This document shows, one piece after another, positions 34,078 to 53,400 of a stretch of 64,000 bases of DNA (the first letter of the stretch is position 1; each line of letters starts with the position of its first letter). The DNA is from Bifidobacterium breve. GTDB lineage: Bacteria > Actinomycetota > Thermoleophilia > Solirubrobacterales > Solirubrobacteraceae. Both the position numbers and the translations under genes were made by a program. Location of the stretch: contig CAMCUD010000010.1 of the NCBI GenBank assembly GCA_945878865.1, positions 1 to 64,000 of the forward strand, read 5' to 3'. The notes beneath the pieces were generated by a model that did not search any database, was not told the origin of the DNA, and saw only the letters and a list, made by a program, of their open reading frames with translations.

Positions 34078-34107
34078 ACGCTACCCCGCCGCCCGGCGGC
34101 GTGTCAC
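34078..34107 (-). promoter_or_regulatory. Promoter of the STAS gene
   Basis: On the minus strand GTGACA (34107-34102) and TAGCGT (34083-34078) are spaced by 18 bases, and the -10 ends 7 bases before the ATG, predicting a leaderless transcript. Confidence 0.5.
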
Positions 34108-35573
34108 GGCGCGGCGCGCGGGAGGGTCTCGGAGACCGGCGGGATGGGCGGCGTGACCGGGATGGCCTCGCGCGCGGCCTCCGCCCGTGAGCGCGGCAGC
34201 GTCCACGCCGAGACGATCGCTCCGAGCAGCACGAGGACCGCGGCGCCGACGAGGCCGGTCACGTGCCCGTCGAGGAACGCGTCCTGCGGCGACGACCCCT
34301 CGGCCAGGGCGCTGGCCTGCCGTGCGGCCAGGATCGCCCCGATGAGCGCGATGCCGAGGACGCCGGAGATCTCACGTGCGACGGCCACGACCGCAGAGCC
34401 GATCCCGGCGCGATCCTCGGGCATGACGCCGAGGATCGCCGAGGTCAGCGGCGTGGTCAGGCCCGAGCCCAGTCCGACGATCGCGCAGCCCAGCACCTGC
34501 TGGGAGACGCCCGCGCCGAGGACGACGATCGGCAGGAGCCCGATCGCGATGACGACCATGCCCGCGGTCACCGTCACGTTGGCCCCGAACATCGTGACGA
34601 GCTTCGGCGCGATCGCCACGCCGAGCACGAGGGTCAGCGCGAGCGGGACGAAGACGAGACCCGCCTGCGTCGGCGAGAGGTCAAGGACGTCCTGCATGAA
34701 CAGCGACGTGAAGAAGAAGACGCCGTTGATGCTCAGGCCCCACAGCACCTGCGCGGCGGTCCCCCCGGCGAACACGCGATTGCGGAACAGCGACACGTCC
34801 ACGAGGGGATACCGGGCTCGGGTCTCCACGACCATGAAGGCGATCGAGGCCGCCACGGCGACCGCGAACGCGGCGACGATCGGCGTCGAGGCGAACCCGT
34901 CGTCGTTGCCCTGCACGAGCGCGTAGGTGATGCCGAGCAGCGCCACCGTCGAGAGGACGAGACCCGGCGGATCGAGCCGCGCGAGCACGTCGCCCTGCGC
35001 TCGAGGTCCGCGGTCCGGGATGTTCGCGACGACCAGCACCATCGCCACGGCGGCGACCGGCACGTTGAGGAAGAAGATCCAGCTCCAGTGCAGGTACTCG
35101 CTGATCGCCCCGCCCACGACCGGGCCGACGAACAGGGCGATCGCGATCGACGCCGTCCAGATCCCGGCGCCCAGGTCGCGCGCTTCGCCCTCGAGATCCG
35201 AGGCGATCACCGACAGCGACGCCGGCAGGATGAGGGCGGCGCCGATGCCCTGCACCACGCGGGCGGCCACGAGCGCGCCGCCCGTGGGCGCCAGGCCGGC
35301 GGCGAGCGACGCCAGCGCGAAGACGAGGAAGCCCAGGAGCATCGCGCGGCGCCGGCCGATGATGTCCGTCAGCCGCCCGCCGACGAGCAGCAGGCTCGAG
35401 AAGGCGAGGATGTAGCTCGTCACCGCCCACTGCAGGCCCGACAGGCCGAGGCCGAGGTCGGCGCGCAGCGCGGGCGCGGCGATGTTGATGACCGTGTTGT
35501 CGAGTGACGTGATGAACGCGGCGAGCGCGACGGGGGCCATCACCCACATCGGAGACCGCTCCATCACCGTCAC
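34104..35573 (-). CDS. MFS exporter (DHA2/EmrB-like) at the end of the PKS operon
   Basis: The 489-residue protein has about 14 helices with the DHA2 signatures: SLDNTVINIAAPALRADL in helix 1, VGGRLTDIIGRRRAM (motif A) and FVGPVVGGAISEYLHWSWIFFLNVP (motif C region). Such proteins export hydrophobic compounds by proton antiport. The GTG at 35573 overlaps the esterase stop (GTGA), though an ATG at 35564 is possible. Its coupling to a lipid-making operon suggests it carries the PKS product or a precursor across the membrane, in the place held by MmpL3 in mycobacteria. That is inference. Confidence 0.88.
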   Translation of the reverse strand: MTVMERSPMWVMAPVALAAFITSLDNTVINIAAPALRADLGLGLSGLQWAVTSYILAFSSLLLVGGRLTDIIGRRRAMLLGFLVFALASLAAGLAPTGGALVAARVVQGIGAALILPASLSVIASDLEGEARDLGAGIWTASIAIALFVGPVVGGAISEYLHWSWIFFLNVPVAAVAMVLVVANIPDRGPRAQGDVLARLDPPGLVLSTVALLGITYALVQGNDDGFASTPIVAAFAVAVAASIAFMVVETRARYPLVDVSLFRNRVFAGGTAAQVLWGLSINGVFFFTSLFMQDVLDLSPTQAGLVFVPLALTLVLGVAIAPKLVTMFGANVTVTAGMVVIAIGLLPIVVLGAGVSQQVLGCAIVGLGSGLTTPLTSAILGVMPEDRAGIGSAVVAVAREISGVLGIALIGAILAARQASALAEGSSPQDAFLDGHVTGLVGAAVLVLLGAIVSAWTLPRSRAEAAREAIPVTPPIPPVSETLPRAAP

Positions 35574-36571
35574 CCGTCGAGCCCGAGCCCGCGCGCGAGG
35601 ACCGGCCAGGAGCGGGCGAACTCGCGCTCCCAGTACGGCCAGGTGTGCGTGCCGCCGCGGTAGAGGTCCGTCGTCACCGGGATCCCGAGCTCGTCGAGGC
35701 GCCGGACGAACGTGCGGGAGTTGTTCCAGCTCCACTCCTCGATCGGGTTGCCGAGGATGTTGAGGTCGTCCGGCTTCTCGAACGGCCCCGGCGTGCCGTT
35801 CCCCGAGGACACGAAGAGCTCGGTGCCGCGCAGCTTCTCGGCGAGGTCGTACGGGTTGACGCTGCGCCAGATGCGCGCCTGCTGGGCGGGCGAGCCCCAC
35901 AGCTGGAAGAAGTCGCGGTTGGCCCGCACGCGGATCGTCGAGACGACCATCCACGTCTTGTCGTAGCGCAGGTGCAGCAGCCCGGAGTAGGACGCGGCCG
36001 CACCGAACAGACCGGGGTGCCGGGCCGCGTACGCCATCGCGCCGTAGCCGCCGATCGAGATCCCCGCGACCGCCCTGCGGGTCGTCGAGCGGTACGCGCG
36101 CTCGAGGATCTGCGGCAGCTCGACGGTGTGGAACGTCTCGTAGTCCACGCCGCCGCGCCGTCCGTAGTTCCATTCCTTCGTGTAGAAGCCGCTGCTGCCG
36201 TCCGACGGCATGACCGTGAGGACCGGCTTGTCGGCGAGGAACGACTCGACGTCGGTGAACTGGGTCCAGCTGCGGTAGTCGACCCACTCGTTGGCGCCGT
36301 GGAGCAGGAAGAGCGCGGGGTAGTTGCGCGACGGGTTGGTGAACCAGTCGGGCGGCAGCATGAGGCGGACGCTTGCCGTGCGCTTGGCCGCGGGCGACCA
36401 GACCTGCAGGTCGACGGTGCGCGCGTCGACGACGGTCTCCCCGACGACCTTCGCGCCGTCATCGGCGACAGCCTTCGACAGGTCGCCGATGCTCGCCGCG
36501 GACGCGGCGGGCGCGAGCGCGGTCAGCAGGGCGGCCGCGACCAGCGCGGCCAGGGTGGACAGGCGGATCAC
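35570..36571 (-). CDS. Secreted esterase of the antigen 85 / esterase D superfamily
   Basis: The 333-residue protein has a signal peptide (LSTLAALVAAALLTALAPAASA) and an alpha/beta-hydrolase fold with the nucleophile elbow GISIGGYG (Ser172) and a late His in GTHTWPYW, close to the GxHSWxYW block of mycobacterial antigen 85 mycolyltransferases. Those enzymes move mycolate between trehalose molecules and to arabinogalactan outside the cell. The GTG start overlaps the PKS stop (GTGA). Acyl transfer of the PKS product is the attractive role; simple hydrolysis (FrmB-like) is the alternative. Confidence 0.82.
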   Translation of the reverse strand: MIRLSTLAALVAAALLTALAPAASAASIGDLSKAVADDGAKVVGETVVDARTVDLQVWSPAAKRTASVRLMLPPDWFTNPSRNYPALFLLHGANEWVDYRSWTQFTDVESFLADKPVLTVMPSDGSSGFYTKEWNYGRRGGVDYETFHTVELPQILERAYRSTTRRAVAGISIGGYGAMAYAARHPGLFGAAASYSGLLHLRYDKTWMVVSTIRVRANRDFFQLWGSPAQQARIWRSVNPYDLAEKLRGTELFVSSGNGTPGPFEKPDDLNILGNPIEEWSWNNSRTFVRRLDELGIPVTTDLYRGGTHTWPYWEREFARSWPVLARGLGLDG

Positions 36572-39500
36572 AGCGCGACATCCCTTCGCGGTTCAGTGAC
36601 GTTCGGACGGCCGTTCGGCTCGCGGCGGAACCGGTGCGTCTCGTGGTGGCGGTGCTCGGCCAGCTCGGCGACCTCGGCGAGCGCCGGCACCTCGGTGAAG
36701 ACCACCCCGAGATGCTCGGCGATGATGTCGACGTTGGGCCGGTCGATGATCTGCGTGTGGTCGCCCGTGACGCGGACGACCTCCAGCGTGCTGCACAGCA
36801 GGTCCCAGCCGAGGCTGTCCTCCTGCCGCGCGTAGCGCGGGTCGAGCGTCGTCGTCAGGCCGCGATCGCTGGCGCGGTAGAGGACCACGCGCCCGTCGTA
36901 GGGCTGCGGCCGGTAGCGCTCGGCGATCCGGGCGTCGACGTACGACGTGCGCTGGTGCTCGAGCACGCCGGGGCTCATGCCCAGACCGGAGCTCGCGACG
37001 GCCTCCATGAACGTCGAGATCTGCTCGTCCTCCGGCAGCGCCATGAGCGCGTCGAGGTCGAGATCGAGCGTGACCTCGTACGTCGTCTCGAGGTACTCCA
37101 CGAACCGCTCGAAGCGGCCGCGGATCGCCTCCTGCTCGTCGTCGACGAGCGAGTGGTCGGGCAGGATCGTGTCGATCATGACCACGACCTCGACGTCCTC
37201 CCCGGCGGCGCGAAGCTGCCGGGCGGCGTCGTAGGCCAGGCACCCGCCCAGCGACCAGCCGCCGAGGCGGTAGGGACCTGAGGGCTGCAGCTCGCGCACG
37301 GTCTCGAGATAGAAGGCGGACTTCTCCTCGATGGTGTGCAGGTGGTCGATCCGCTCGAAGCCGATGACCGCAACGTCGCCGGGGAGCAGGTCGGCCAGCG
37401 GCTGGTAGACGGCGGTGGTCCCGCCAGCGGGGTGGAAGAGGAACAGCGGCCGCGCATCCTCGCCGGCCTCGCGCAGCGTCCGGACCGGCGATCCGCCGTT
37501 GTCCTCGATGATGGCCCGCAGGACGTCGGCCTGGGAGGCGACGGTCGCGCCGTCGGCGAAGAGGCCGTCGATCGTGACGTCCGCGCCGAGACGGTCGCGG
37601 ACGCGTGCGAGCACGCGCTCCGCGACCGCCTCATCGGCGGGCGGGCAGAGCGGCTCCGTGGCGCCGATGGGGCGACGCCCGAGCTCCTCTTCCCACACCC
37701 CGGCAAGCCAGCGTTCGGTGGTGTCGCGTGGCTCGACGAAGCGCGCGGCATCGGCCTGGGCCGCCGCGGTGGGCGCCTTCAGGCCGAGTTCTCCGGCGAT
37801 GAACGCCTCGATGTCGGCGAGGCTCGCGTCCTGCAGGAGCAGGCGCACCGGCAGGACGACCCCGAAGTCGTGCTCCACCGCGTTCTTCGCGCGGACGGCG
37901 ATGAGCGAGTCGGCGCCCAGCGAGGTCAGCGGGGCGCGCACGTCGATCTGCTCGGGCCGGTAGGCCATGATCGTCGCGACGCGCTCGAGCAGCCGCGCGC
38001 CGAGCAGACGCTGCGCCTCCTCCGGCGCTGCGGCACGCAGGCCCTCGACGCCGACCCAGTCGCCGCTGTCGTCGTCGGCGGCCGGGGCCTCGCGCTCGAG
38101 CAGGTCGGCGAAGAACGCCACGTCGCGCAGGCCGGGGAGCAGCTCGACGGCGCGTCGCGCGTCGAGCCGGACCACGCCGGTCTGGGCGCGGCCGCTGCGC
38201 AGCACCGCGTCGAGCGCCGCGACGCCCTCCTCGGGCGACAGCGACTCGAGCAGCGCGTTGTCGGTCTCGGCGACGCCGCCGACCTGCGACCACGCGCCCC
38301 AGTTGATCGTCGTCGCGGCGAGACCCTGCGCGCGGCGCCAGGCGACAAGCGCATCGATCCACGCGTTGGCCGTGGCGTACGCGAGCTGCCCGGGCGACCC
38401 CAGCAGGCCCGCGGCGGACGAGAACATGAGCCAGAGGTCCGGGCGATGGTCGGTCGTCGCGCGGTGGAGGTTCCACGCGCCGATGACCTTCGGCGCCCAG
38501 ACGCGCTCGACGGCGCCGGCGGTCAGCCGCGCGACGACCTCGTCTTCGAGGGCGCCGGCGGCGTGGACGACGCCGCGCAGCGCGACCCCGCCTTCGGTGG
38601 CGGCACGCACCATCGTGTCGACGTCGGCGGGTCGCACGACGTCACCGCGCACGACCTCGACGTCGACGCCGCCCGTCCGCAGCTCGTCGATGACCTCCTG
38701 CGCGGGCGCCGACGGCGCAGAGCGGCCGTTGAGCACCAGGCGCGTCGCGCCCTCGGCGGCCAGCCAGCGGGCGACGACGAGACCGAGGCCGCCCAGGCCA
38801 CCGGTGATGACGTACGCCCCCTCGCCGACCGGCGGGGTGGCGGAGGCCGGTGGGACGAGCGCGACCCGGGCGAGCCGCCGGACGTGCCGGGCGCCGTCGC
38901 GCCACGCGACTTCGTCGTCGGGGCCGTCGGCGAGGAGCTCGCGCACCGCGCATCCCAGAGTGTCGACGTCATCGAGGTCGACGACGGTGGCCCGCAGGGC
39001 CGGATGCTCGAAGGCGAGCACGCGGACGGCGGCCCGCAGCGCCGCGAGCGCGGGCTGTCCGGACTCGCCGTCGGCGAGCGCCGCGCCGCCGCGGGTGAGG
39101 ATCCACAGCCGCACGGGCGCGTCGAGCTCCGCCTCGGCGGTGACGCGGGCGACCCGCGCCGCCGAGACGACGAGGTGCTCGGCGAGCTCGCGGGCGGCGT
39201 CGGAACCGACGTCGTCGGCCGCGAGGGCGGGGGCGACGAGGACGACGCCGCGCGGCGGGCGGTCGTGGTCGGCCGCGAGCGTCGCGACGGCGTCGGCGAC
39301 CTCGTGCTCGGAGGCGTGGCCGCCCAGGTCGATGCGCTGTCCGGCGTCGCGCAGCTCGCGGGCGAGCTGCTCGACCGGGACGGCGTGCTCGGTCGCGTTG
39401 CCTGCGAGCACGAGCCAGCGGCCTGACGACGGTTCGGCCGGCGCCTCGACCTCCGAGGCGAGCCACGCCGCGTCGAACAGCTTGTCCGACAGCGGCGTCG

Positions 39501-42500
39501 GGATCGCGTCACGCGAGAGCCGGCGGAGATAGACCTCGTCGGCCTCGAGCAGCACCTCGCCGTCGTCGCCCAGCAGGCGCAGGGTGCCCGACAGGCCGGT
39601 GCCCTCGTCGTCGAGCGGACGAAGCGTCGCGACGCACCGGCCCCCGGCGTGCGGGTCGCCGGCGACGCGCAGCGCGCCGATGCCCAGCGGCAGGTAGAGC
39701 TCCATGTCGCGGTCCCCGAGATGGGCCTGCGCGGCGACGCCGAGCGTCTGCAGGCACACGTCGAGGAGCGCGGGGTGCACGCGGTAGCGCGGATCGGCCG
39801 CTGCGGCCTCCGGCAGGCGCACGCGTGCGGTCGCGACGCCGCCCGCGTGCAGCCGGGCGTCGCTGACGCCGGTGAACGCGGCGCCGTAGCGGTGGCCGGC
39901 CGCCTTGAAGGCGCCGTACAGGTCGACCGGCTCGCCGGCGTCCTGCGGAAGGTCCGGGCCGCCGTCGGCGGGCAGCGGCACGCGGGAGACCGTGGCCGTC
40001 GCATGGCGGGTCATCGGGGTGCCCGGCGCAGCGGATTCCTCCCGGGCATGGACCTCGACCCGAGCGTCGCCAGCCTCCGTGATCGTCACCGACGTCGTGA
40101 CGTCCGTACGGGCCGCGAGCGGCAGGACCTGGTCGAGCTCGAGCCCGCGCAGCACGAGATCCGCCGGATCGCCGCCGAGGACCTCGGCCGCGGCGCTCAG
40201 CGCCATCTCCGCGTACGCGGCGCCCGGAAGGACCGGCACGCCGTGGACGGCGTGGTCGGCCAGCCACGGCAACGCGTCGACCCCCGCGTCGGCGCGCCAC
40301 AGATGGCGGCCGCCCTCGGGCAGCTCGACGTGCGCGCCCAGCAGCGGGTGGCCGGCGGGCGCCGCGGCGGGCTGATGGTCGACCCAGAGACGCTCGTGGC
40401 GCCAGGCCGGCAGCGGCAGGTGGGCGTGGCGCCCACGAGGCACGAGCGCGTCCAGATCGGGCGCGGGGCCGCGCAGCTCCAGCAGCGCGGCGTGCGTGCG
40501 GAACGTGACACCCTCGTCGCCCTTGCGGCGCAGCGTCGGCGTCACCGTGACGGCGTCGGCGCCCTGGGCCTTGGCGGTCTGGGCGACCGCGGCCGCGGCG
40601 ACCGGGTGGGCGGAGATCTCCACGAAGCTCGTGAAGCCGTCGTCGACGGCGGCCGCCACCGCGTGGCGGAAGCGCACCGGCTGCCGGGCGTTGGCGCGCC
40701 AGTAGGCAGCGTCGAACGCGGGCGTCTCGCGCGGGTCCCCGTGCACGGACGTGTAGACCGGCACCGCGGGGGCCTGGGGCCGCAGCGCGGCGAGGCCCTC
40801 CTCGAGGTCGTCGAGGATCGGGTCGACCGCGGCGGAGTGCCCCGCGCCGCTGACCTTCAGGATCCACGCGCCCCGGCCGAGGCTCTCGACGTGCTCGGCG
40901 AGCCGGCGGACCTGCTCGGCGTCACCGGCCACGGTCTGCTGGCCCGGCGACGCGAACACCGCCACCTGCACGTCGGGGAAGGTCTCGCCGAGCTCTTCGA
41001 GCTCCTCGGCGGAGATCTCCATGACCGCCATCGCGCCGCCCCCGAGGGCGTTGATGCTCTGCAGCAGCCGGGAACGCAGGGAGATGACCCGCACGCCCTC
41101 CGCCGGCGTCAGCGCGCCCGTCGCGACCGCGGCGGCGACCTCGCCCATCGAATGGCCGATGACGGCCGCCGGCTCGCGGCCATAGGACCGCCACAGCGCG
41201 GCGAGCGCCACCTGCATCGCGAAGACCTTGACCTGCGTCTGGTCGACGGTCTCCTCACCGGAGGGCGCGCGGAGCGCCTCGACGAGGGAGAAGCCCGCTT
41301 CGGCGCGGACGAGCGGCTCGAGCTCGTCGATCGCCGCCGCGAACGCCGGCTCCTCGTCGAGCAGCTGCGCGCCCATGCCGGCCCACTGCGAGCCGAAGCC
41401 CGAGAAGACCCACACGTCGCCGCGCGCCGACGCGGCGCGGCGGGGCGCCGAGACCGGTCCGGCCTGGCCCGGCAGGTCGCCCTCGCCGGTGGCGGCGAAC
41501 GCCTCGAGCCCGTCCGCCAGCGCGTCGCGCCCGCGTGCGGTGAACGCGGCGCGCACCGCGGCGACGTCCCGCCGGCGGGCCAGCGTGTGCGCGACGTCTC
41601 CCAGCGGCGCGGCCCGCCCGGCATCGGAGCGCAGCCACCTGGCGAGCGCCTCCGCCTCGTCGCGCAGGCGCGGCGCGGACGCCGCCGAGAGCGCGAGCGT
41701 CACGGGAGCGTCGCCGTCCTCGGCGGCGGCGTCGGAGACGACGGCCGCGGCGGGCTCCTCGATGACGACGTGCGCGTTCGTGCCGCCGAAGCCGAACGCC
41801 GACACCCCGGCGCGCGCGACGCCGTCGTAGCGCGGCCACGCGCGCTCTTCGTCGACGACGCGCAGCCGCGCCTCGTCGAACGGGATGTGCGGGTTGGGAC
41901 CGGCGTAGTTGATGCTGCGCGGCAGCCGGTCGTGCTGCATCGCCAGGACGAGCTTGACCAGCCCCGCGACGCCGGCGGCGCCCTCGAGGTGGCCGAGGTT
42001 GCTCTTCACCGAGCCGAGCAGGAGCGGCCGCTCGGCGTCGCGGCCCGCCCCGAGGACGGCCGCCAGCGCGCCCGCCTCGATCGGATCGCCGAGCAGCGTG
42101 CCCGTGCCGTGCGCCTCGACGTAGTCGACCGCCGAGGGGTCGACGCCCGCCCGCGCGTAGACGTCGCGCAGGAGCGCCTCCTGCGCCAGCGGGTTCGGCG
42201 CCATCATGCCGTTGGAGCGGCCGTCCTGGTTGACCCCGGTCCCGCGGATCACCGCGAGGACGTGGTCACCGTCGCGTCGCGCGTCGCGCAGGCGCTTGAG
42301 GACGACGACGCCGCAGCCCTCGGCGCGCACGATGCCGTCGGCGTCGCTGCTGAACGGCTTGCAGCGGCCGTCCGGAGCCAGCGCGCCGCCCATCTCGAAG
42401 TTTATGGTGATCGCGGGGGCGAGCAGGAGGTTCACGCCGCCGACGACCGCCTGGTCGATCTCGCCACCCTCGATCGCCCGCGTCGCCTGATGCACGGCGA

Positions 42501-43347
42501 CGAGCGACGACGAGCACGCGGTGTCCGTCGTCATGCTCGGCCCGCGCAGGTCGAGCAGGTAGGACAGGCGGTTGGCCGCGATGCTCAGCGCCGAGCCGGT
42601 GCTCGTCCACGCGTCGATGCGCGCGAGGTCGGCGGTCGTGAGGTGGCTGTACTCGTTGGCGCACATGCCGACGTACACGCCGGTCGCGGTGCCCCGCAGC
42701 GACGACGGCGCGATGCCGGCGTGCAGCAGCGCCTCGTGCGCGACCTCGAGCAGCATGCGCTGCTGCGGGTCCATGAGCTCGGCCTCGCGCGGGGTGATGC
42801 CGAAGAACTCGGCGTCGAACCCGGCGACGTCGTCGAGGAAGCCGCCGCGGTGCTGCGCGGCGTCGACGATCGCCTGCGCCGCGGGATGCGCGGGCGTGAA
42901 CTGCTCCCAGCGCCCCTCGGGCACCTCGCCGACCGCGTCGCCGCCGGCGAGGAGGAGGTCCCAGAACTCGGCCGGCCCGGTGGCGCCCGGCAGGCGGCAG
43001 CCGAGGCCGACGATGGCGACCCGGTCGTCGTCGTCGGCGGGATCGCTCGTGACGGTGATCGCAGTGGCCGGCGCCGTCTCCTGCTCGACGGCCTCGTCGC
43101 CGTGGATGAGCCGGCGCGCGATGAGCGTGATCGTCGGCGTCTTCCAGACGAGCGTCGCGTCGAGGTCGCGGTCGAGGTGGTCCTCGAGGTCGCCGACGAG
43201 GCCGACGGCGTCGCGGCTCGACAGACCGAGCTCGGTCAGCGGGCGATCGGGGTCGATCGCGTCGGCGTCGAGGTCGAGCACGTCGGCGATGGCCTCGCGC
43301 AGCCAGGCGACGAGCTCGAGCTCCCGGGGATCGGACGTGCTGGTCAT
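36568..43347 (-). CDS. Type I polyketide synthase, Pks13-like with added DH and KR
   Basis: The 2259-residue enzyme has, in order: N-terminal carrier protein (about 10-80, Ser44 in GLSSRD), KS (109-530; Cys278, His413, His453), AT (645-935; Ser733 in GHSMG, His837), DH (1000-1280; His1032 in HxxxGxxxxP and Asp1196), KR (1285-1690; GGLGGLG 1516-1522, Ser1643, Tyr1657), carrier protein (1785-1855; Ser1814 in GADSL), a carrier-like stretch without Ser (1870-1945), and a thioesterase (1965-2220; Ser2032, Asp2059, His2197). The ACP-KS-AT...ACP-TE frame and the GLSSRD site match mycobacterial Pks13, which condenses two fatty acyl chains into mycolate. DH and KR could reduce and dehydrate the beta-keto product; no ER is present. 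The ATG overlaps the FAAL stop (ATGA). Confidence 0.93.
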
Positions 43348-45146
43348 GACCGTCCTCCGACGGGGCGCAGAGCGCCTTCGAGGTACTGCGCCCGCGTGGC
43401 CTGCCGCGCGATCTTCCCGCTGGACGTGCGGGGAACCGTGTGCGGCTCCACGAGGACGAAGTCGTGCAGGCTCACCGCCTGCTGCAGCGACACCGCCTGC
43501 TTGGCGGCGGCCGCGATCTCGGCGAGCGACGCGGCGGCGTCCGCCGCGTCACGGTGCTGTTCGGCGACGACGACAAGGCCCTCCGTGTCGCCGGTCTCGA
43601 CCGCGAACGCGGCGAGCCGGTGCGCGGCGATGGCGTCGTGCGCCTCTTCGACCGACGCTTCGACGTCGTTGGGGTAGATGTTGCGGCCGTCGATGATGAT
43701 CGTGTCCTTCAGGCGGCCCGTGATGTAGAGCTCACCGTCGATGCGGACTCCGAGGTCACCGGTTCGCAGCCAGCCCGAAGGCGGCAGCCCGACCGGATCG
43801 GCCAAGCGCCCGTCGAAGGTCGAGGCGCTCTCGCGGGCGTCGCCCCAGTAGCCGGCTCCGACGTTCTCGCCGTAGACCCAGACCTCGCCGACCGTTCCGT
43901 CGGGAAGCAGCTCGGCGGTCGCCGGATCGACGAGCGCGACCTCCTGCCCGAACGCGATGCCGCACGAGACGAGCTCGGTGGTGCGCGCGTCGGGACCGCT
44001 CGGCGGGATGGCGCGATGGGCCTGCAGCGCAGCGGCGTCGACCTCCGTGATCCGCGCCGGCCGACCGCTCGGCGTCGTCGAGACGAACACCGTCGCTTCG
44101 GCCAGGCCGTAGGACGGACGGACGGCCTCGGCGCGCAGGCCCTGCGGCGCGAACGTCTCGATGAACTGGCGGACCGTCCGCGGGTGGACGGGCTCTGCGC
44201 CGTTGAGCATCGCCTTGACGCCCGAGAGGTCGAGCGCCTCGCGATCGGAGGCCTTCACGCGCTTGGCCGCGTAGCCGTAGGCGAAGTTCGGCGCGGCGGT
44301 GTACGTGTGGGGCTGGCGGGCGATCTCGCGCATCCACCGCACGGGGCGCTGGATGAAGGCCAGGGCGTCGAAGATCCCGGACGTCGCCGCCGTGACGATC
44401 GGCAGCACGATGCCGAGCAGCAGGCCCATGTCGTGGAACAGGGGCAGCCAGCTGATCGCGGCGTTGTGGTCGCACGGGTCGACGTCGAACGCCTGCATGA
44501 GCTGGCGGGCGTTGACGACGAGGTTGTGGTGCGTGAGCTCGACGCCGGCGGGCGTGCGCGTGGACCCCGACGTGTACTGCAGGTAGGCGAGCGCGTCCCG
44601 GCGCAGCGTGGACGGCCGCTCGTACGTGTCGGCGCGGACGTCGTCGCGCAGCGCGTCGACGGCGATGACGGCGGGATCCAGGCCGGGGAGGTCGGCGACG
44701 AGCGCCTCGACGGCGGCGACGTGGGCGTCGGTCGTCAGGACGACCGTCGGCCGGCAGTCGGCGAGCACACCGCGCAGCCGGTCGCCCTGCCCGAGGTGCT
44801 CGGGCTCGAACAGCGGCACGCCGACGGCGGCGGAGCTGAGCGCGCCGGCGAACGCGGCCATGTAGCCGGGGCCCGCGGGGGTGAGGATGGCGGCCCGGTC
44901 ACCCGGGGCGGTCAGCTCGCCGATGCGCACAGCGATCGCCCGCGCCCAGCGCTCGAGCTCGGCGAACGTGACGAGATGCTCGACGCCGTCGCGCTGCGTG
45001 GAGAAGTCGGTGAAGCGCATGGCGACGCGGTCGCCTTCGGTCCGCGCCCAGTAGGCGAGGTAGTCGGGCAGGAGCGCGTCGTCGCCGAGCCGGGAGATCG
45101 GGCCGAACAGGGCGTCGGGATGGGCGCTGGTCTGCAGCTCGGTCAC
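43344..45146 (-). CDS. Fatty acyl-AMP ligase, FadD32-like (FAAL 1)
   Basis: The 600-residue enzyme activates a fatty acid as acyl-AMP and should load it on the N-terminal carrier of the adjacent PKS. It has the ATP loop LQYTSGSTRTPAGVELTH, SYGLAEATVFVS followed by the long FAAL-type insertion, WLRTGDLG, and the C-terminal catalytic Lys in RTSSGKIAR. The GTG at 45146 is preferred to the one at 45152: GGAGG sits six bases before the former and directly against the latter. It is the first gene of the operon FAAL-PKS-esterase-MFS, joined by 4-base overlaps. Confidence 0.93.
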   Translation of the reverse strand: MTELQTSAHPDALFGPISRLGDDALLPDYLAYWARTEGDRVAMRFTDFSTQRDGVEHLVTFAELERWARAIAVRIGELTAPGDRAAILTPAGPGYMAAFAGALSSAAVGVPLFEPEHLGQGDRLRGVLADCRPTVVLTTDAHVAAVEALVADLPGLDPAVIAVDALRDDVRADTYERPSTLRRDALAYLQYTSGSTRTPAGVELTHHNLVVNARQLMQAFDVDPCDHNAAISWLPLFHDMGLLLGIVLPIVTAATSGIFDALAFIQRPVRWMREIARQPHTYTAAPNFAYGYAAKRVKASDREALDLSGVKAMLNGAEPVHPRTVRQFIETFAPQGLRAEAVRPSYGLAEATVFVSTTPSGRPARITEVDAAALQAHRAIPPSGPDARTTELVSCGIAFGQEVALVDPATAELLPDGTVGEVWVYGENVGAGYWGDARESASTFDGRLADPVGLPPSGWLRTGDLGVRIDGELYITGRLKDTIIIDGRNIYPNDVEASVEEAHDAIAAHRLAAFAVETGDTEGLVVVAEQHRDAADAAASLAEIAAAAKQAVSLQQAVSLHDFVLVEPHTVPRTSSGKIARQATRAQYLEGALRPVGGRS

Positions 45147-45195
45147 GGACACCCTCCGATCCGCGGCGTGCGGGCGCGATCATCGGCGCTGGCCA

Positions 45196-45208
45196 GCCGG
45201 AATCCGGC
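45196..45208. promoter_or_regulatory. Palindrome in the leader of the FAAL-PKS operon
   Basis: GCCGGA-A-TCCGGC is a perfect 6-bp inverted repeat with one central base, 50 bases upstream of the FAAL start. It lies within the roughly 200-base leader predicted from the promoter at 45361-45388. Its function is unknown. Confidence 0.3.
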
Positions 45209-45360
45209 CTCCCGCACCGCATCCGCATACGCGACGGATCGGTGGTGCGCACGGCATGGACAGCTGCCCTGACAGTAGACACGTAGCAAGCGATTCACCC
45301 CCCTAGGAATCGTCCGCGCGGTGCTCCCCCCATGGTGCTGCGCGGGTCTTGCTCCCCTGG

Positions 45361-45388
45361 AACCTAGCATTACCGACCGGACGGTCAA
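45361..45388 (-). promoter_or_regulatory. Promoter of the FAAL-PKS-esterase-MFS operon
   Basis: On the minus strand TTGACC (45388-45383) and TAGGTT (45366-45361) are separated by 16 bases, one of the best -35/-10 pairs in the window. Transcription would start near 45354, leaving a leader of about 200 bases. Confidence 0.65.
45375..45386. promoter_or_regulatory. TetR-type operator overlapping the operon's -35 element
   Basis: GACCG-GA-CGGTC is a palindrome of the class bound by many TetR-family lipid regulators. It covers most of the -35 hexamer, so binding would exclude RNA polymerase. No TetR gene lies next to this operon. Confidence 0.6.
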
Positions 45389-45405
45389 GAGCAAGTTCCA
45401 TGAGA

Positions 45406-45420
45406 CTGACGGGGTGTCAG
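45406..45420. promoter_or_regulatory. Inverted repeat at the end of the PPTase gene
   Basis: CTGAC-GGGGT-GTCAG is a perfect 5-bp inverted repeat overlapping the PPTase stop codon, upstream of the FAAL promoter. The 12-mer TGACGGGGTGTC inside it recurs before the second FAAL gene. It may be an operator or a short hairpin. Confidence 0.35.
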
Positions 45421-46154
45421 ACCTCCGCTCGACGCACCGTCCGGTCCACAGACGTACCACCGGCGGGGACGGCGACGGCGGCCACGGCGCCGTCGAGGGC
45501 CACGTCGGCGACGCGCACGGCGCCGAGCCCGTCGGGGAGATCGGCGGCGTGCCACCCGTCGGCATCGGCGCCGGCTGCGACGAGCACCCGCTCGAGGCCA
45601 AGCGCGACCCCGTGGCCGGTGACCTTCGATGCCGCCTCCTTGCGCGACCACGCCGCGAGGCGGGCGGCGGCGGGATCTGGCGCGTGCGCGCTTGCGTCCC
45701 ACTCGGCATCAGAGAAGACGTGCCGTCGCGCGCGCTCCCAGTCGACGTCGGGTCGCGCGTCCTCGACGTCGACCCCGACGGGGCCGTCCACGCTCAGCGC
45801 GACCACGGCGAACCGACCTGCGTGAGACAGGCTGATCGCCGGGGCGGTCGGGACGTCGAGCTCGGGCTTGCCGTGGTCGGTCGCTCCGCACGTGGGGCAG
45901 GTGCGGCGCAGCCGCAGGTCGGCGGCCGGCACGCCGAGCGCCGCCGCGGCCCGGCGGCGCAAGATGCCGTGGGCGACGAGCGCCCGGAGGCGGTCATCGG
46001 GGCGCACGAGCGCGGCGATCCGGTCGCGTGTCGCGGCGTCGAGCGTGGCGCGCAGCGTGTCGAGCTGCGCGGGGGAGAGGTCGATCGGGCTCCACCACAC
46101 CTCGACGGTGCCGGCGGCGACAGTCGCACGGGCGATGGACATGCGGAGCATCAT
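45417..46154 (-). CDS. Sfp-type 4'-phosphopantetheinyl transferase
   Basis: The 245-residue enzyme converts apo carrier domains to the holo form using coenzyme A. It shows AISLSHAGRFAVVALS, the Mg-binding VGVDVED and the WSRKEAASK motif, all diagnostic of the Sfp/PptT group. A CPTC pair in the N-terminal half is unusual. It lies 270 bases upstream of the FAAL-PKS operon in the same direction, so the PKS carriers are its obvious targets, as PptT serves Pks13. Start codons at 46154, 46151 or 46142 are all possible. Confidence 0.93.
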   Translation of the reverse strand: MMLRMSIARATVAAGTVEVWWSPIDLSPAQLDTLRATLDAATRDRIAALVRPDDRLRALVAHGILRRRAAAALGVPAADLRLRRTCPTCGATDHGKPELDVPTAPAISLSHAGRFAVVALSVDGPVGVDVEDARPDVDWERARRHVFSDAEWDASAHAPDPAAARLAAWSRKEAASKVTGHGVALGLERVLVAAGADADGWHAADLPDGLGAVRVADVALDGAVAAVAVPAGGTSVDRTVRRAEV

Positions 46155-46276
46155 CGCGCCGAACGCGATTCGGTGGTGGAACGGAAAACTGGTTGGTACC
46201 CTCCGTGGACGAGCACCGGGCGGGGGGAACGGCCGGACGCGCTCAAGGGAACCTGTCCGGTCTGTCTGAGGGGTGC

Positions 46277-47875
46277 ATGTTGCGACGACTGCTTGCGGTC
46301 GCTCTGTCGAGTCTTGTGGTGCTGGGCGTCGCCGCGCCGGCGGCGTCTGCCGCGCCGACGACGCCCAAGTGGGTGTCGATCACGAGCACCGACGGCGTGA
46401 AGATCCACGCCATCGTCTTCCTGCCGCCGCGCCGCGAGCCCGGCGTCAAGCCGCCGGCGATCGCGTTCGCCGCCGCCTGGAACGGCGGGGCCGAGCAGAA
46501 CTCGGTGCCGGCCTACCAGCTGGCCCGCCGCGGCTACATCGTGGTGAGCTACACGACCCGCGGCACCGGCAAGGACGGCCAGGGCAAGATCGACATGGGC
46601 GGCCCGAAGGACCTCGCCGACATGTCGGCCGTCATCGACTGGATGATCGACACCCAGGGCGCCGACCCGGCCCGCATCGGCGCCGCGGGCATCTCCTACG
46701 GCGCCGGCATCGCGCTCATGGCCTCAGGGGTGGACAAGCGGATCCGCACCGTGGTCTCCATGAGCGGCTGGACCGATCTCGGCCGCGCGCTCTATCCGAA
46801 CGAGACCCGCAACTCGTGGGCCGGCTTCATCCTGTGGGCGTCCGCCCGGCAGGCGTCGCACGTCGGGCCCGACTTCCTCGGCGTGTTCAATGACTTCTTC
46901 GAGCACCGCGACCCCGAGAAGACCCTGGCCTTCGCGCGCGGGCGCTCGGCGGTGTCGTTCATCGACCGGATCAACGCCAACCGGCCGGCGGTCATGCTGT
47001 CGCAGAACTGGAACGAGCTCGCGTTCCCGCCGGACCAGATCATCGACTTCTACGGGCAGCTGCAGGGCCCGAAGCGCATGTATCTGCGTCCCGGTGACCA
47101 CGTCGGGCAGGAGACATTCGGCCTGCTCGGCTCGCCGAACGTCGTGCTCAGCCGCATGTACACCTGGTTCGACCGCACGCTCAAGGATCCGGCGCAGGCT
47201 GAGACGGCCGGCTCGGAGATCGAGATCCAGCCGCGCGCGCCCTACGGCGACCGGACCCTGGAGACCTACACGGACTGGTCGCAGGTGAGCACCGGCACCC
47301 GCCGCTGGTACCTCGGCGGCGTCGCCACGAAGAAGGGCGACGGCGCCGCTGCCGCCGACCCGCAGACGGGCTGGTCGACGACGATCAAGCCCGGCTTCAA
47401 CGTCGTCAACCACGTCGGCGGCCCGATCGTCTCGCACTGGACCGAGGTCTGGTGGGGCCGGCCGGTCTGGACCGAGCCGAAGTTCATCGACCGCACGACC
47501 AGCGCGACGTGGCTGAGCGAGCCGATGACCGAGTGGGTCAAGCTGCGAGGTGCCCCGAAGGTCCACGTGACCATCACGCCGACCAAGAGCAAGGGCTTCC
47601 TCGACTTCGTCCTGTGGTCGGTCACGCAGGCCGGATCCGGCCGGCACATTACCCACGCGCCGATCACGTGGCGCGACAAGACGCCGGGCGTGCCGTTCAC
47701 GCTCGATCTGCCGCTGCGCCCGAACGCGTTCAACATCCCGCCGGGTGAGCGGCTGCTCCTGGCCGCCAGCACGTACGAGCTGAACTACTACCTCGAGCGC
47801 AACGACAAGGGCGCGCGCTTCACCTTCAGCTCGCCGGCAGCCGACCCGTCGTGGGTCGAGCTGCCGACGCGCTGA
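46277..47875 (+). CDS. Secreted alpha/beta hydrolase of the CocE/X-Pro peptidase (S15) type
   Basis: The 532-residue protein has a signal peptide (RRLLAVALSSLVVLGVAAPAASA), an alpha/beta-hydrolase core with nucleophile GISYGAG, the YTTRGTG oxyanion region and a late PGDHVGQE His segment. A C-terminal jelly-roll-like domain (about 340-532, ending LLLAASTYELNYYLE) follows, as in CocE/NonD hydrolases and X-Pro dipeptidyl peptidases. It acts outside the cell on an ester or peptide. A strong site GAGGGG stands just before the ATG. Its end is seven bases from the convergent FAAL 2 gene. Confidence 0.82.
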   Translation: MLRRLLAVALSSLVVLGVAAPAASAAPTTPKWVSITSTDGVKIHAIVFLPPRREPGVKPPAIAFAAAWNGGAEQNSVPAYQLARRGYIVVSYTTRGTGKDGQGKIDMGGPKDLADMSAVIDWMIDTQGADPARIGAAGISYGAGIALMASGVDKRIRTVVSMSGWTDLGRALYPNETRNSWAGFILWASARQASHVGPDFLGVFNDFFEHRDPEKTLAFARGRSAVSFIDRINANRPAVMLSQNWNELAFPPDQIIDFYGQLQGPKRMYLRPGDHVGQETFGLLGSPNVVLSRMYTWFDRTLKDPAQAETAGSEIEIQPRAPYGDRTLETYTDWSQVSTGTRRWYLGGVATKKGDGAAAADPQTGWSTTIKPGFNVVNHVGGPIVSHWTEVWWGRPVWTEPKFIDRTTSATWLSEPMTEWVKLRGAPKVHVTITPTKSKGFLDFVLWSVTQAGSGRHITHAPITWRDKTPGVPFTLDLPLRPNAFNIPPGERLLLAASTYELNYYLERNDKGARFTFSSPAADPSWVELPTR

Positions 47876-47882
47876 GCGCAGA

Positions 47883-49652
47883 TCAGCGGGGGAGGACCCG
47901 CACGAGCTCGCCGGTGAGGTAGGCCGCGCGGGCGCCGTGGCGGGCGATCTTCCCGCTCGACGTCCGCGCGATCGTGTCGGGCTCGACGAGGACGACGTCA
48001 TCGAGCGCGACCGCGTGCTCGGTCGACACGGCGGCGCGGACGGTCGCGGTGATCTCGTCGAGGCGCTCGGCGGCGTCCTCGGCGGTCCGGTGGCGCTCGG
48101 CGACGACGATGACGTCCTCGCCCGTCGCGCCCGGGACCGCGAACGCCGCCAGGCGGTGCGCGGCGATGGCCGGATGGGCGTGCTCGACCGTGAGCTCGAG
48201 ATCGTGCGGGTAGACGTTGCGCCCGTCGACGATGATGAGGTCCTTGCGGCGGCCCGTGACGTAGAGGTCCCCGTCGGCGATCGCGCCGAGGTCGCCGGTG
48301 CGCAGCCACGGGCCCTCGGGCAGGTCGCCCGGGTCGGCGAGCGTTCCGCCGAAGGTCTCGCGGGATGCGTCCTCGTTCTGCCAATACGCGCGGCCGACGT
48401 TGGGGCCGCAGACCCAGATCTCGCCGACCTGCCCATCCGGCAGGCGCGACCCGTCCACGCCGACGATCGCGACGTGCTGGCCGTCGACCGGCGCGCCGCA
48501 GGACACGAGCCGCAGCGCCCGCGCGCCGTCCGCGGCGTCCTCGAGCCGGCCGTGCTGCAGGGCCGACGCGTCGAACCCGCGCACCGTCGGGCCCTCGCCC
48601 GGGCGGCTGCGCGTGACGAACACCGTCGCCTCGGCCAGGCCGTAGGACGGGAAGCACGCGTCCGCGCGGACGCCGACCGGCCCGAACGTCTCGAGGAACC
48701 GGTCGACCGTCGCCGGAAGCACCGGCTCGGCGCCGTTGAGCAGCGCGATGACCCCGGAGAGGTCGAGGTTGACCCGGTCCTCCTCCTTCATCCGCTTGGC
48801 GACGTAGCCGTAGGCGAAGTTCGGCGCCGCGCTGATCACGTGCGAGAGGCCGTGCATCGCCCACATCCAGCGCTGCGGCTTCATGAGGAACGCGAGCGGA
48901 TCCATGAGATGCGCGTGCGCGCCGCAGACGATCGCGCCGGGCGCGCCGATGAGCAGCCCCATGTCGTGGAAGAGCGGCAGCCAGCTGACGGCGTTGGTGT
49001 CGCCGTAGTGCAGCTCGTAGCCCTCGATGATCTGCCGGGCGTTGGCGAGCAGGTTGCCGTGCGTGAGCTCCACGCCCGCGGGCGCGCGCGTGGAACCCGA
49101 CGTGTACTGCAGGTAGGCGACATCCTCCGGGCGGATGTCGTCGGGACGCACGAACGCGTCGGCGAGCGCCGCGCCCTCCGCGCCCTCGAGCTCGTCGACG
49201 CAGATGACACGGGCATCCGGCCCGGCGACCTCGGCAACGAGATCGCGCTTCTCCGAGACGGTGAGCAGGCACGCCGGCTCGCAGTCGGCGAGCACGCCGT
49301 GCAGGCGGTCGCCGTGGCCGGGCATGTCCGGCGAGAAGAGCGGCACGCCGATCACGCCCGCGCGCAGCGTGGCGGCGAACGCAACGACGTAGCCCAGCGA
49401 CTGCGGGCAGACGATCGCCACGCGATCGCCGCGTCCGGCCCGCAGGCCGATGGCGACCGCGACGGCGCGCGACCAGCGGTCGAGTTCGGCGTACGTGATG
49501 CTCCGCGTCACGCCCTTGCGGCTGACGAGGTAGTCGGTGAACGTCTGCGCGACGGCGTCCGGCCGTTCGCGCGCCCAGTGCTCGAGATAGTCGGCGACGA
49601 GCACGCCGTCAACGCCGGCGAGCGGATCCGCCGGACGGGTGATGCTGATCAT
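47883..49652 (-). CDS. Second fatty acyl-AMP ligase (FAAL 2)
   Basis: The 589-residue enzyme is a paralogue of FAAL 1 with the same landmarks: LQYTSGSTRAPAGVELTH, SYGLAEATVFVTRS plus the FAAL insertion, WLRTGDLG and the catalytic Lys in RTSSGKIAR. No PKS or NRPS lies beside it, so its carrier partner is either the PKS of this cluster or one elsewhere. A strong site AAGGGGGG stands four bases before the ATG. It is divergent from acpS. Confidence 0.92.
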   Translation of the reverse strand: MISITRPADPLAGVDGVLVADYLEHWARERPDAVAQTFTDYLVSRKGVTRSITYAELDRWSRAVAVAIGLRAGRGDRVAIVCPQSLGYVVAFAATLRAGVIGVPLFSPDMPGHGDRLHGVLADCEPACLLTVSEKRDLVAEVAGPDARVICVDELEGAEGAALADAFVRPDDIRPEDVAYLQYTSGSTRAPAGVELTHGNLLANARQIIEGYELHYGDTNAVSWLPLFHDMGLLIGAPGAIVCGAHAHLMDPLAFLMKPQRWMWAMHGLSHVISAAPNFAYGYVAKRMKEEDRVNLDLSGVIALLNGAEPVLPATVDRFLETFGPVGVRADACFPSYGLAEATVFVTRSRPGEGPTVRGFDASALQHGRLEDAADGARALRLVSCGAPVDGQHVAIVGVDGSRLPDGQVGEIWVCGPNVGRAYWQNEDASRETFGGTLADPGDLPEGPWLRTGDLGAIADGDLYVTGRRKDLIIVDGRNVYPHDLELTVEHAHPAIAAHRLAAFAVPGATGEDVIVVAERHRTAEDAAERLDEITATVRAAVSTEHAVALDDVVLVEPDTIARTSSGKIARHGARAAYLTGELVRVLPR

Positions 49653-49715
49653 GTTCCCCCCTTGGACAGGCCCTTCGTCCGCGCCGTTCCCCGCGGGCGG
49701 ACGAGAGGTCGCCGC

Positions 49716-49721
49716 ATCATA
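49716..49721 (-). promoter_or_regulatory. -10 box of FAAL 2
   Basis: On the minus strand TATGAT is a near-consensus -10 about 64 bases before the FAAL 2 start; no strong -35 is visible. Confidence 0.4.
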
Positions 49722-49722
49722 T

Positions 49723-49734
49723 TGACGGGGTGTC
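49723..49734. repeat. 12-mer shared with the region upstream of FAAL 1
   Basis: TGACGGGGTGTC occurs here and at 45407-45418, in the same orientation relative to both FAAL genes. I did not find a third copy by eye. Confidence 0.45.
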
Positions 49735-49828
49735 GAGGAGGGAAGGGGCGGATCGGCCACGCGGAACCGCCGTCGCATCTCTCCAGGCGAGGCGCGGTGT
49801 CCGGCCGGAGGCCGATACTTTGCGGGAT

Positions 49829-49855
49829 ATGAGACAGGGGAACCACAGGCCGTGA
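49829..49855 (+). other. Possible leader mini-ORF coupled to acpS
   Basis: ATG at 49829 opens an eight-codon frame (MRQGNHRP) whose TGA overlaps the acpS GTG as GTGA. The ATG sits seven bases after a TACTTT box, the usual leaderless spacing in this window. It may drive coupled translation of acpS or be chance. Confidence 0.25.
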
Positions 49856-50289
49856 GCGTCCTGGGCATGGGCTTGGACGTCGTGGACGTCGCCGGCTTCG
49901 AGCAGCGGCTCGAAGCGGACCCGGCGCTCGTGGACGCCACCTTCACACCAGGGGAGCGGGCCGACGCGGACTTCGGCGACGGCGCGGACCGCGTCCGGCG
50001 GCTGGCCGGGCGGTTCGCTGCCAAGCAGGCGTTCCTGAAGGCCTGGTCGGCGTCGCGGTACGGGCGTCCGCCGGCGCTCACCCGCGTGGACCTGCGCGCG
50101 ATCGAGGTGCGCCTCGACGGCCAGGGACGTCCGGCGATCGTGCTGCACGGCGAGGTGGCCGAGGAGGTCGCGGCGCTCGGGGTGCAGCTCGAGCTGCGCG
50201 GCGACGTCGCCACGCACGTCTCGATCAGCCATGACGGCGGCATCGCCGCTGCGGTCGTGCTTCTGAGCGCCACGCCGCTGGCGGGCTGA
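49852..50289 (+). CDS. acpS: Holo-[acyl-carrier-protein] synthase AcpS
   Basis: The 145-residue protein has GMGLDVVDVAGF with the Mg-binding Asp, the RFAAKQAFLKA motif (usually RFAAKEA, with Gln here in place of Glu) and a closing SISHDGG. AcpS activates the fatty acid synthase carrier protein. Its place beside FAAL 2 puts both kinds of phosphopantetheinyl transferase in one lipid cluster. The GTG start follows a possible eight-codon leader. Confidence 0.9.
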   Translation: MSVLGMGLDVVDVAGFEQRLEADPALVDATFTPGERADADFGDGADRVRRLAGRFAAKQAFLKAWSASRYGRPPALTRVDLRAIEVRLDGQGRPAIVLHGEVAEEVAALGVQLELRGDVATHVSISHDGGIAAAVVLLSATPLAG

Positions 50290-50466
50290 CCCCGTCGCGC
50301 TCCGGCCGCGGGTCGTGCGGTCAGACGGAATGTTTGTACCACCTGTCTAATCCGGGGCGCGTGGGCCTCTGACACGATCGGCGCCGGCTGCCGCCGCCCC
50401 TTCGCGCTCGCGCGACCGGCGGCCCCCGCCATCGCTCAGACCACCACCACCCGAAGGACCCTCCCC

Positions 50467-53400
50467 GTGCGCCCGACCTCTCATCCGAGGCGGACGCCCC
50501 GTACCCGCGCACGACGCGCGGGTGGGGCGCTCCTGTCCTCGGCCGGCCTGCTGTTCGCGCTCGCGAGCCCGGCTGACGCCGTCAACACCGTCACGACCGC
50601 CAACACCGTCGAGTGGGGCGTTCACGACGCCTCGCGGCCCGGCCTGGACACCGGCAGCATCCGCAGCACGACGAACAACTCGCTCGTCGGCTTCGGCAAC
50701 CTTCGGATCGTCGTCTCCGACGTCCCGGACACGGATCCGACGAAGCGCTTCAACGGCGAGATGCTCCGCGGGTTCGGCCTGCGATTCGACGGCGAGGACG
50801 GATCGGACCCGACGTTCGCGACGACGAAGCCCGTCACGCTCGGCGGCGTCGAGGTGACCCGCACGCTGAAGGTCCTCTCCGCGACGAATGCGGTGCGCTG
50901 GTTCGACACGTTCACCAACACGACCGATCGCACGCTGACGGTCGCGACGTCATTCGGCGGCACCGCCGGCACGACGAACGCGTCGACGCACAGCAAGATC
51001 GTCGACACCGGCAGCGGCGACGCGACGGCAACCTCCGCCGACGCGTGGGTCGAGGTCGCCACGCCGCACAGCAGCGCGACGACGCTGACGTCGGGCCCGA
51101 CGGTCAGCGGCCCGAGCGCCGTCGTGCTCGGCACGCCGACCGCGGCGTTCAACATCAGCGGGCTCGGCGTGCAGCAGTACAACCCGTTCGCCACGGCGCT
51201 GCCGACGAGCCCGTCGGACACGCTGAAGGACAGCTTCTACGGGTACACCCAGACGCTCACGCTCACACCGGGTCAGACGAAGTCGCTGCTGCGCTTCGTC
51301 GTCGCCGGGCGCGGAGAGAAGACGACGCCGGCGAGCACGCTGCCCGCTCCGGGCACCGAGATCGCCGCGGTGAAGACCGGGGCGTCGGCGCTGAGCGCGG
51401 CTCCGGACCTCGCGGGCGTCGCGTTCAAGGACATCTGCACGCTGGCCAACTGGAACCTCGCGGCGCTGCCGGGCTTCAACGAGAGCCTGTGTGAGGAGGT
51501 CGACACGACCGTCGAGCCGAGCGCGAAGCCCACGAAGCTTCCCGTGACGAGCTCGCCGTACGACGTCGTCGGGAAGTCGCTCTCCGAACTCGAGGAGGAC
51601 ATGGAGGCCGGCAAGACGACGTCGCAGGAGATCACCCGCGCCTACCTCGACCGCATCGCCGCCTACGACACCGGGCAGTTCGGCCTGCACAGCTTCATCA
51701 CCGTCGCTGGCGACGCGATGGAGCAGGCCAAGAAGGCCGACGAGCGCCGCAAGGCAGGGGAGACCGGCGACCTGCTCGGCATCCCGATCGCGGTCAAGGA
51801 CCTCTACGACACGAAGGACATGCCGACGACCGACGGCACGCTGGCCCTCGACGGCTGGCGGCCCAAGCGCGACGCGTTCCAGGTCAAGAAGCTCCGCGAG
51901 GCCGGCGCGGTCATCCTCGGCAAGACGAACCTCTCGGAGTTCGCGAACTCCGGCAGCTACTCCGAGTCGGGCTACGGCATGACGTGGAACGCGTTCAAGC
52001 CGTCGAAGACGACGCTCGGCTCGTCGGGTGGCACGGCGTCCGCGCTGGCCTCGAGCTTCGCGGCGATCGGCATGGGCTCGCAGACCGGCGTCTCCCTCTA
52101 CGCGCCGTCGACGGGCGCGGGCCTGGTGTCGATGCGCGGGACCGACGGCGTCGCCTCGGGCGCCGGCGTGATGCCGCTGACCTGGCTGCAGGACTTCGCC
52201 GGGCCGATCGGCCGCACCGTCGAGGACGTCGCGCGGTTCCTCAACGTCACGACGGGCCCCGACCCCGACGACGTCTTCACCATCCACAACGACGCGGGCG
52301 AGAAGGCGCCTGACGACTACACCGACTTCCTCGACGAGGACGCGCTGGTCGGCAAGCGCATCGGGTACATCCCGTCGGCGTTCACCGGCAGCCCGAGCTA
52401 CGGCCAGGACAGCGGCACGATGGACGCGATGGTCGGCAAGCTCCAGGAGTTCGTCGACGCCGGAGCGACGCTCGTGCCGATCGACACCGCGGTGAACCCG
52501 GTGCCGTCGACCGGCAGCGCGGGCTCGCTGACGGGCAACCGCACGATCGAAGGCTGGAAGCGCTACCTCGACCTGCACGAGGACCCGCCGTACGACAGCG
52601 GTGCGCAGATCCTCTCCTCGCCGAAGGTCCTGCCGTACAACCGCCGCACCCAGGCCGACGTGCCGGGGCTGACCGATGCGGACGTCGACAAGATCCTCGC
52701 CTCGCGCGACGTGTCGAAGGACCGCATCAAGACCTGGATGGACACGCTGAACGTCGACGCGGTCGTCTACCCGGGCTTCCGGTCGGACATCTACGACAAC
52801 GACGGCGCGCAGACGCTGTCGTCGGACCGCAACAGCGGCGTGCTGACGTCGAACTACGGCCTGCCGACGGCGATCATCCCGGTCGGCCCGAACCCGAGCG
52901 GCGACGCGATGACGCTGCAGATCGTGGGCCGAGCCTTCGACGACGGCAAGATCCTCGGCTACGGCTACGCGCTGGAGCAGGAGGTCGGCGCCGTCGGCAA
53001 GATGGTGCCCGCGACGACGCCGAAGCTCGCCTACGAGCCCGGCGCGACACCGGCGCCCATCGAGCCCGATCGTCCGACGGAGCCGGTCACGACGCCGAGC
53101 GCGCCGGACCCGATCTCCAACGCGTCGGCGCCGTTGCCCGCGTCGCAGACCGCGAAGCCGAAGACGGGCGTGACGATCACGAAGACCGCGCGCCTGCGCG
53201 GCGGGCGTGTCGGCCTGACGCTGAAGAACACGACGGGCCAGACCCTCACGGGCACCGTGGTGATCAAGGGCAGGGCGACGAAGAACGGCCGGACGGGCAC
53301 CTACACGTTCGGCAGCGCGAAGGCCACGATCGGACCCGGTGGGACGAAGGTCGTCTCGGTGAAGCTCGGGCCGACCGGCCGCAAGGCGTTCGCCCGGCGC

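Follow-up and report, generated by a model that had tools for sequence, protein, structure and literature searches.

Can the machinery that assembles and exports mycolic acids have a counterpart outside the mycolata, the group to which mycolates and the antigen 85 enzymes are taught to be exclusive? This question is raised by a four-gene operon located in a 64,000-nucleotide stretch of DNA (hereafter the window; contig CAMCUD010000010.1 of assembly GCA_945878865.1) that derives from the genus Svornostia, placed by the NCBI taxonomy in the Thermoleophilia, Solirubrobacterales. The operon encodes a FadD32-like fatty acyl-AMP ligase (FAAL), a Pks13-like polyketide synthase (PKS), an antigen-85-like esterase and an exporter of the major facilitator superfamily (MFS). 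We assign a probability of roughly 0.6 to the reading that these genes constitute a Pks13-type system for one-step lipid condensation and surface transfer outside the mycolata.

All four genes lie on the minus strand in the order FAAL-PKS-esterase-MFS, and their coordinates bear out the initial annotation, which had described co-directional genes joined by four-base overlaps (exactly ATGA, GTGA and GTGA). The FAAL gene spans positions 43344-45146, with the GTG start at 45146 assigned by comparison with S. abyssi (the longest open reading frame, ORF, reaches 45152), and is followed by the genes for the PKS (36568-43347; 2,259 amino acids), the esterase (35570-36571) and the MFS protein (34104-35573). 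The coding status of the first three is backed by codon-position GC content. The MFS frame was missed by a simple gene caller, yet it gives a full match to MFS_1 (PF07690, 1.8e-49) and belongs to the DHA2/EmrB type (TIGR00711, 239.5 bits; cut-off 230.2). Pfam searches and inspection of the frames yielded no extra tailoring gene within the four-gene run.

The PKS shows the Pfam domain order ACP-KS-AT-DH-KR-ACP-TE. Thus, the Pks13 set of N-terminal acyl carrier protein (N-ACP), ketosynthase (KS), acyltransferase (AT), C-terminal ACP and thioesterase (TE) is complete, and the N-ACP motif GLSSRD is common to both proteins. Pks13 is further defined by the lack of reductive domains; the window PKS contains a dehydratase (DH) and a ketoreductase (KR), both with intact catalytic motifs, as had been anticipated in the initial annotation. 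Its best NCBIfam match is mycolic_Pks13 (NF040607), with 1466.3 bits and hence below the equivalog cut-off of 2100.

A link to Pks13 is provided by the TE, which matches the TEs of Pks13 with 1.5e-57, the next non-Pks13 protein following at 6.6e-25. In the TE tree (like all trees reported here, a quick tree with SH-aLRT support), 42 operon-family rows, including the window, and nine mycolate Pks13 rows are separated from 18 other TEs with a support of 98. When the N-ACP and KS were used as query, Pks13 scored 573 bits; only 7zma ranked higher (627.5 bits, a sum over two KS domains, 301 and 323), and CurL followed with 438. The first KS tree united the operon family and Pks13 on a branch with a support of 88 to 91; the open fork concerned also held a further mycobacterial KS (L175). 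For this tree L084 from Streptomyces fildesensis was counted in the mycolate group, and it was regrouped afterwards. In approximately unbiased (AU) tests, performed without the long branches L010 and L190, a single clade of operon KSs and Pks13 was not rejected (p-AU 0.644), the held tree being 6.1 log units better. The initial annotation had named KS and TE phylogenies among its checks; a placement of the PKS far from Pks13, among ordinary iterative PKSs, was not seen. The first KS tree also nested Pks13 within the DH-KR family (84). The AU test of nesting versus sister position, however, favours neither (p 0.499), nor does it settle the order in which DH-KR was gained or lost. A separate large PKS is encoded elsewhere in the genome of the window (contig C9, positions 40866-52766), where the KS of the Pks13 model matches a frame of 5,034 amino acids three times.

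The FAAL points in the same direction. Its closest solved relative is FadD32 (8.5e-135), followed by FadD23 (1.2e-113), and in the FAAL tree the operon FAAL is sister to FadD32 on a branch with a support of 98. Two other Mycolicibacter FAALs, L206 and L217, fall inside this branch, and a six-row group including five Mycolicibacter FAALs falls outside; the tree was computed without L033, L039 and L213 for reasons of coverage or stops. With 556.8 bits against the NCBIfam FadD32 model (NF038339; cut-off 975), the FAAL is not a FadD32, just as the PKS is not a Pks13, by the NCBI cut-offs.

The esterase is predicted to be secreted, judged by eye from a signal-like stretch at its N-terminus. In phmmer searches it matched PS1 (MytA; 1.4e-46) and MytC (Cmt1; 3.5e-28) before another esterase (4.8e-18). 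An AlphaFold2 (AF2) model of the protein (pLDDT 86.1) superimposes on MytA with a Z score of 35.9 (rmsd 2.6, 290 aligned residues), and the top 22 structural matches all belong to the mycoloyltransferase family, with esterases of the S-formylglutathione-hydrolase type appearing from Z 28.9 downwards. The predicted structure thus matches the antigen-85 fold, and the motifs of the Ser-Glu-His triad are present. In the esterase tree, for which 15 of the 43 operon-family loci contributed no row, one clade (98) consists of 24 operon esterases plus an identical row and another (99) of the mycolate enzymes, while four operon esterases (L042, L053, L057 and L065) are placed elsewhere.

The operon is not a one-off but a member of a family that recurs across genera. 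Both sister genomes retain FAAL-PKS-esterase-MFS, the PKS at about 80% identity, which answers the question of conservation that the initial annotation had raised. When genomes were scanned with the TE alignment, 351 relatives came to light; the following counts rest on the best 80 by TE similarity, a set beyond which the rarer carriers and Corynebacterium lie. It comprises 39 loci from mycolate genera and 41 from genera that we take to be non-mycolate from general chemotaxonomy (Frankia, Saccharopolyspora, Amycolatopsis, Streptomyces and others). Among the latter, N-ACP, KS and FAAL are found together in 40 (the exception, L072, is a short contig), a DH in 36, a KR in 34, AccD in 26, the esterase in 27 and the MFS gene in 23. 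The mycolate loci contain a FAAL in 36 cases (three are cut short) and AccD in all 39, and neither DH nor KR in any; 30 of them have an antigen-85 match scoring 55 bits or more nearby. The exact Svornostia order recurs in Pseudofrankia and Frankia AgB1.9 (L037 and L041). Moreover, four Solirubrobacterales loci (L033-L036) have AccD directly after the PKS and hence the order of fadD32-pks13-accD4, with a DH and without a KR. Three Streptomyces loci (L064, L068 and L084) encode a PKS of plain Pks13 domain order, devoid of DH and KR, together with AccD and an antigen-85-like esterase. In the AccD tree, the operon AccDs and the mycolate AccD4 proteins share one branch (90). We also observed a second, more distant type in L072 and L028 (a Solirubrobacterales metagenome-assembled genome), in which the TE groups with Sciscionella and a phosphopantetheinyl transferase (PPTase) and an MFS gene follow the TE.

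Taken together, the phylogenies of TE, FAAL and AccD, the AU test on the KS, the gene order and the esterase structure indicate that the kinship of the operon to the mycolate machinery is real. Most likely, the operon operates in the manner of the system that condenses and transfers mycolates, drawing on the same wider enzyme family with extra domains. From the observed gene order, domain order, catalytic motifs and kinship we infer the following scheme, in its reactions and substrates as well as in the acceptor and the place where the product ends up. The PPTase encoded upstream would arm both carrier domains of the PKS. The FAAL would convert a fatty acid to acyl-AMP and load it onto the N-ACP, and the AT would place an alpha-carboxyacyl-CoA on the second ACP. 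A single decarboxylative Claisen condensation by the KS would then give a 2-alkyl-3-keto thioester, the keto group of which would be reduced by the KR. Subsequent dehydration by the DH is probable. Since the catalytic motifs of the window DH and KR are preserved, the expected chain is branched and either beta-hydroxy or 2-alkyl-2-enoyl. The Pks13-like TE may transfer this chain to a polyol, for which trehalose is a candidate; the trehalose-6-phosphate synthase family is represented in five of five genomes. Finally, the MFS protein would carry the ester out of the cell, and the secreted antigen-85-like enzyme would pass its acyl chain on to the ultimate acceptor. In our best reading the product would therefore be an acyl ester with an alpha-branch and either a beta-hydroxy group or an alpha,beta-double bond, which leaves the cell and is transferred there.

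Several observations weigh against this reading. The branch that unites the operon esterases with the mycoloyltransferases against other esterases is weak (72), and one Mycolicibacter genome has another KS that scores above its Pks13 (558 and 533 bits). Of the 41 family rows, only 17 have retained both DH motifs, for which reason the family probably makes beta-hydroxy and 2-enoyl products alike. An Emb arabinosyltransferase (PF04602) was found in none of five genomes, the C. glutamicum control being positive; therefore, an arabinogalactan anchor or an arabinogalactan-bound mycomembrane is not expected. As to mycolic acids in the cells, Conexibacter woesei is reported to have none (PMC3035278). 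The genome of the window gives 25 MMPL matches. The MFS protein thus need not be the sole exporter, and of the proposal that it stands in place of MmpL3, the presence of an MFS gene in the operon holds, but replacement does not follow.

The remaining adverse observations concern the extender unit. Among solved structures, the window AT is nearest to mycocerosic acid synthase (MAS; 273.8 bits) and PpsA (252.8), followed by Pks13 (205). Moreover, the Svornostia operon contains no AccD, and none of the six AccD-family matches in the genome of the window falls in the operon/AccD4 clade. The initial view of a mycolate logic at work outside the mycolata is partly supported, by the groupings of TE and FAAL and by a KS clade that is not rejected, and less so by the AT. 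These data suit an alternative in which the AT takes methylmalonyl-CoA or a small alkylmalonyl-CoA in a single extension, so that the operon would produce an alpha-methyl beta-hydroxy or 2-methyl-2-enoyl fatty acyl ester nearer to MAS-type chemistry than to mycolates. However, the first AT motif is GAGH in the window, GASH in Pks13 and VASH in MAS, and the leading G occurs in 33 of 41 operon-family rows, including the window, and in nine of nine mycolate rows. The GAGH motif fits a bulkier extender, although the overall similarity of the AT points to MAS. In addition, the AccD encoded alongside the operon in relatives falls with AccD4. We therefore consider a short extender somewhat unlikely.

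Alternatively, the PKS might make a secreted specialised metabolite, a lipidic natural product rather than a structural lipid, with the MFS protein serving as efflux pump and the esterase maturing or inactivating the product outside the cell. In line with this, the MFS protein is of the DHA2 drug-efflux type and the distribution is patchy. In the class sample, a strong TE match (>600 bits) occurs in 3 of 299 genomes, 17 others giving weak ones of up to 116 bits; among near relatives, 5 of 61 genomes have both the N-ACP-KS and the TE, the window's own included and one (G024) with the two parts on two contigs. At E<=1e-45, the phylum sample yields 18 of 396 genomes: that of the window itself, 14 from a single family whose ORFs are of Pks13 size, two from a second family and one weak match. 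The structural position of the esterase among mycoloyltransferases, the occurrence of the same gene set in many genera and a four-gene run without a further tailoring gene speak against such a metabolite, which we regard as improbable. An ordinary iterative PKS that resembles the mycolate genes by chance is highly improbable. In its favour, MAS ranks above Pks13 in the whole-protein search because of the DH-KR stretch, which lengthens the continuous alignment. Against it, the phylogenies of TE, FAAL and AccD, the AU test on the KS and the gene order all favour the Pks13 family, and chance synteny with an ordinary PKS was rejected on the trees and the test.

If the reading of a Pks13-type condensation and transfer system is correct, the operon would add two chemical steps to those of the mycolate cluster, and Svornostia might produce a branched lipid of the cell surface that has so far escaped recognition. 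A sister system conserved across Frankia, Saccharopolyspora, Amycolatopsis, Streptomyces and the Thermoleophilia would then serve as an outgroup when the origin of mycolic acids is traced, provide culturable carriers in which to seek a missed lipid class, and offer natural variants, with or without KR, DH and AccD, of a major drug-target enzyme. Only tentatively do we go further and suggest that mycolic acid synthesis might be a stripped-down branch of an older and wider actinobacterial FAAL-PKS(DH-KR)-AccD-transferase-exporter system, which would supply bacteria regarded as mycolate-free, Thermoleophilia among them, with alpha-branched surface esters of the beta-hydroxy or unsaturated kind. 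The Pks13 of the mycolata would then have arisen from this system when DH and KR were lost.

The region upstream of the operon contains further genes of related function. As the initial annotation had noted, an Sfp-type 4'-phosphopantetheinyl transferase is encoded about 265 bases upstream (45417-46154, minus strand, longest ORF; PF01648 2.1e-12, PF22624 4.4e-06), and homologues lie upstream of the FAAL gene in both Svornostia sister species. In S. abyssi (L021:6661-7402) the match is split over two frames, so that either the gene itself or its sequence contains a frameshift. The best-conserved part of the gap between PPTase and FAAL genes, in three of three aligned Svornostia species, is a promoter-like block, TTGACC-N16-TAGGTT (45388-45361), within a feature at 45348-45395 on the minus strand that includes a flanking inverted repeat, CTTGCTC/GAGCAAG, a possible operator. 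Variation is confined to a single position in the second hexamer (G or C) and two positions in the spacer. The strong promoter initially postulated here is thus matched by a conserved element, but a scan for the sigma-70 consensus found no promoter at the operon, and the accompanying terminator scan was likewise unproductive. Further upstream, and absent from the initial annotation, lies the core of a second FAAL, a paralogue of the operon FAAL (47883-49607, minus strand; match at residues 276-845), whose 849-amino-acid ORF (47883-50432) is probably too long at the 5'-end. In the FAAL tree it forms a group with a pair of paralogues from S. abyssi (99) and joins the operon FAALs of Svornostia (84). 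An AcpS-type phosphopantetheinyl transferase (49852-50289, plus strand; PF01648 1.1e-11) is antisense to the 5'-part of this ORF and has homologues in the sister genomes (L024:3143-3604, 5.4e-10). At 53537-55942 on the minus strand, an 801-amino-acid protein carries a class F sortase-like domain at its C-terminus and a weak Ig-like match.

How does the operon compare with known systems? Searches of the open-access PMC literature, which did not extend to subscription papers, MIBiG or supplements, found no description of a FAAL-PKS-esterase-MFS cluster. One study mentions a type I PKS that is kept in all studied Frankia strains (PMC3848822); this could be the PKS of the present operon or a different one. 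The loading of the N-ACP by a FAAL, a single condensation, release onto a polyol and transfer outside the cell are known for FadD32, Pks13 and antigen 85 (PMC9210659, PMC11927696). Like the fadD32-pks13-accD4 locus with fbpA/fbpD of the mycolata, the operon has a FAAL followed by a Pks13-type PKS with the same type of N-ACP and TE, and in its relatives AccD comes next. Unlike that locus, the Svornostia operon has a built-in DH and KR, no AccD, and an esterase and MFS gene downstream, in a setting without Emb, and its PKS and FAAL score under the cut-offs that define the mycolata proteins. The esterase has its top sequence and structure match in C. glutamicum MytA/PS1 (6sx4), sharing the Ser-Glu-His triad and the GTHxWPYW motif, but it is 32% identical over the structural alignment and lacks the remainder of the 589-residue chain. 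With MAS, the window PKS shares the KS-AT-DH-KR order and the nearest AT. MAS is iterative, possesses an enoylreductase and lacks an N-terminal ACP and a TE of the type found here, whereas the window PKS combines an N-terminal ACP with a Pks13-type TE.

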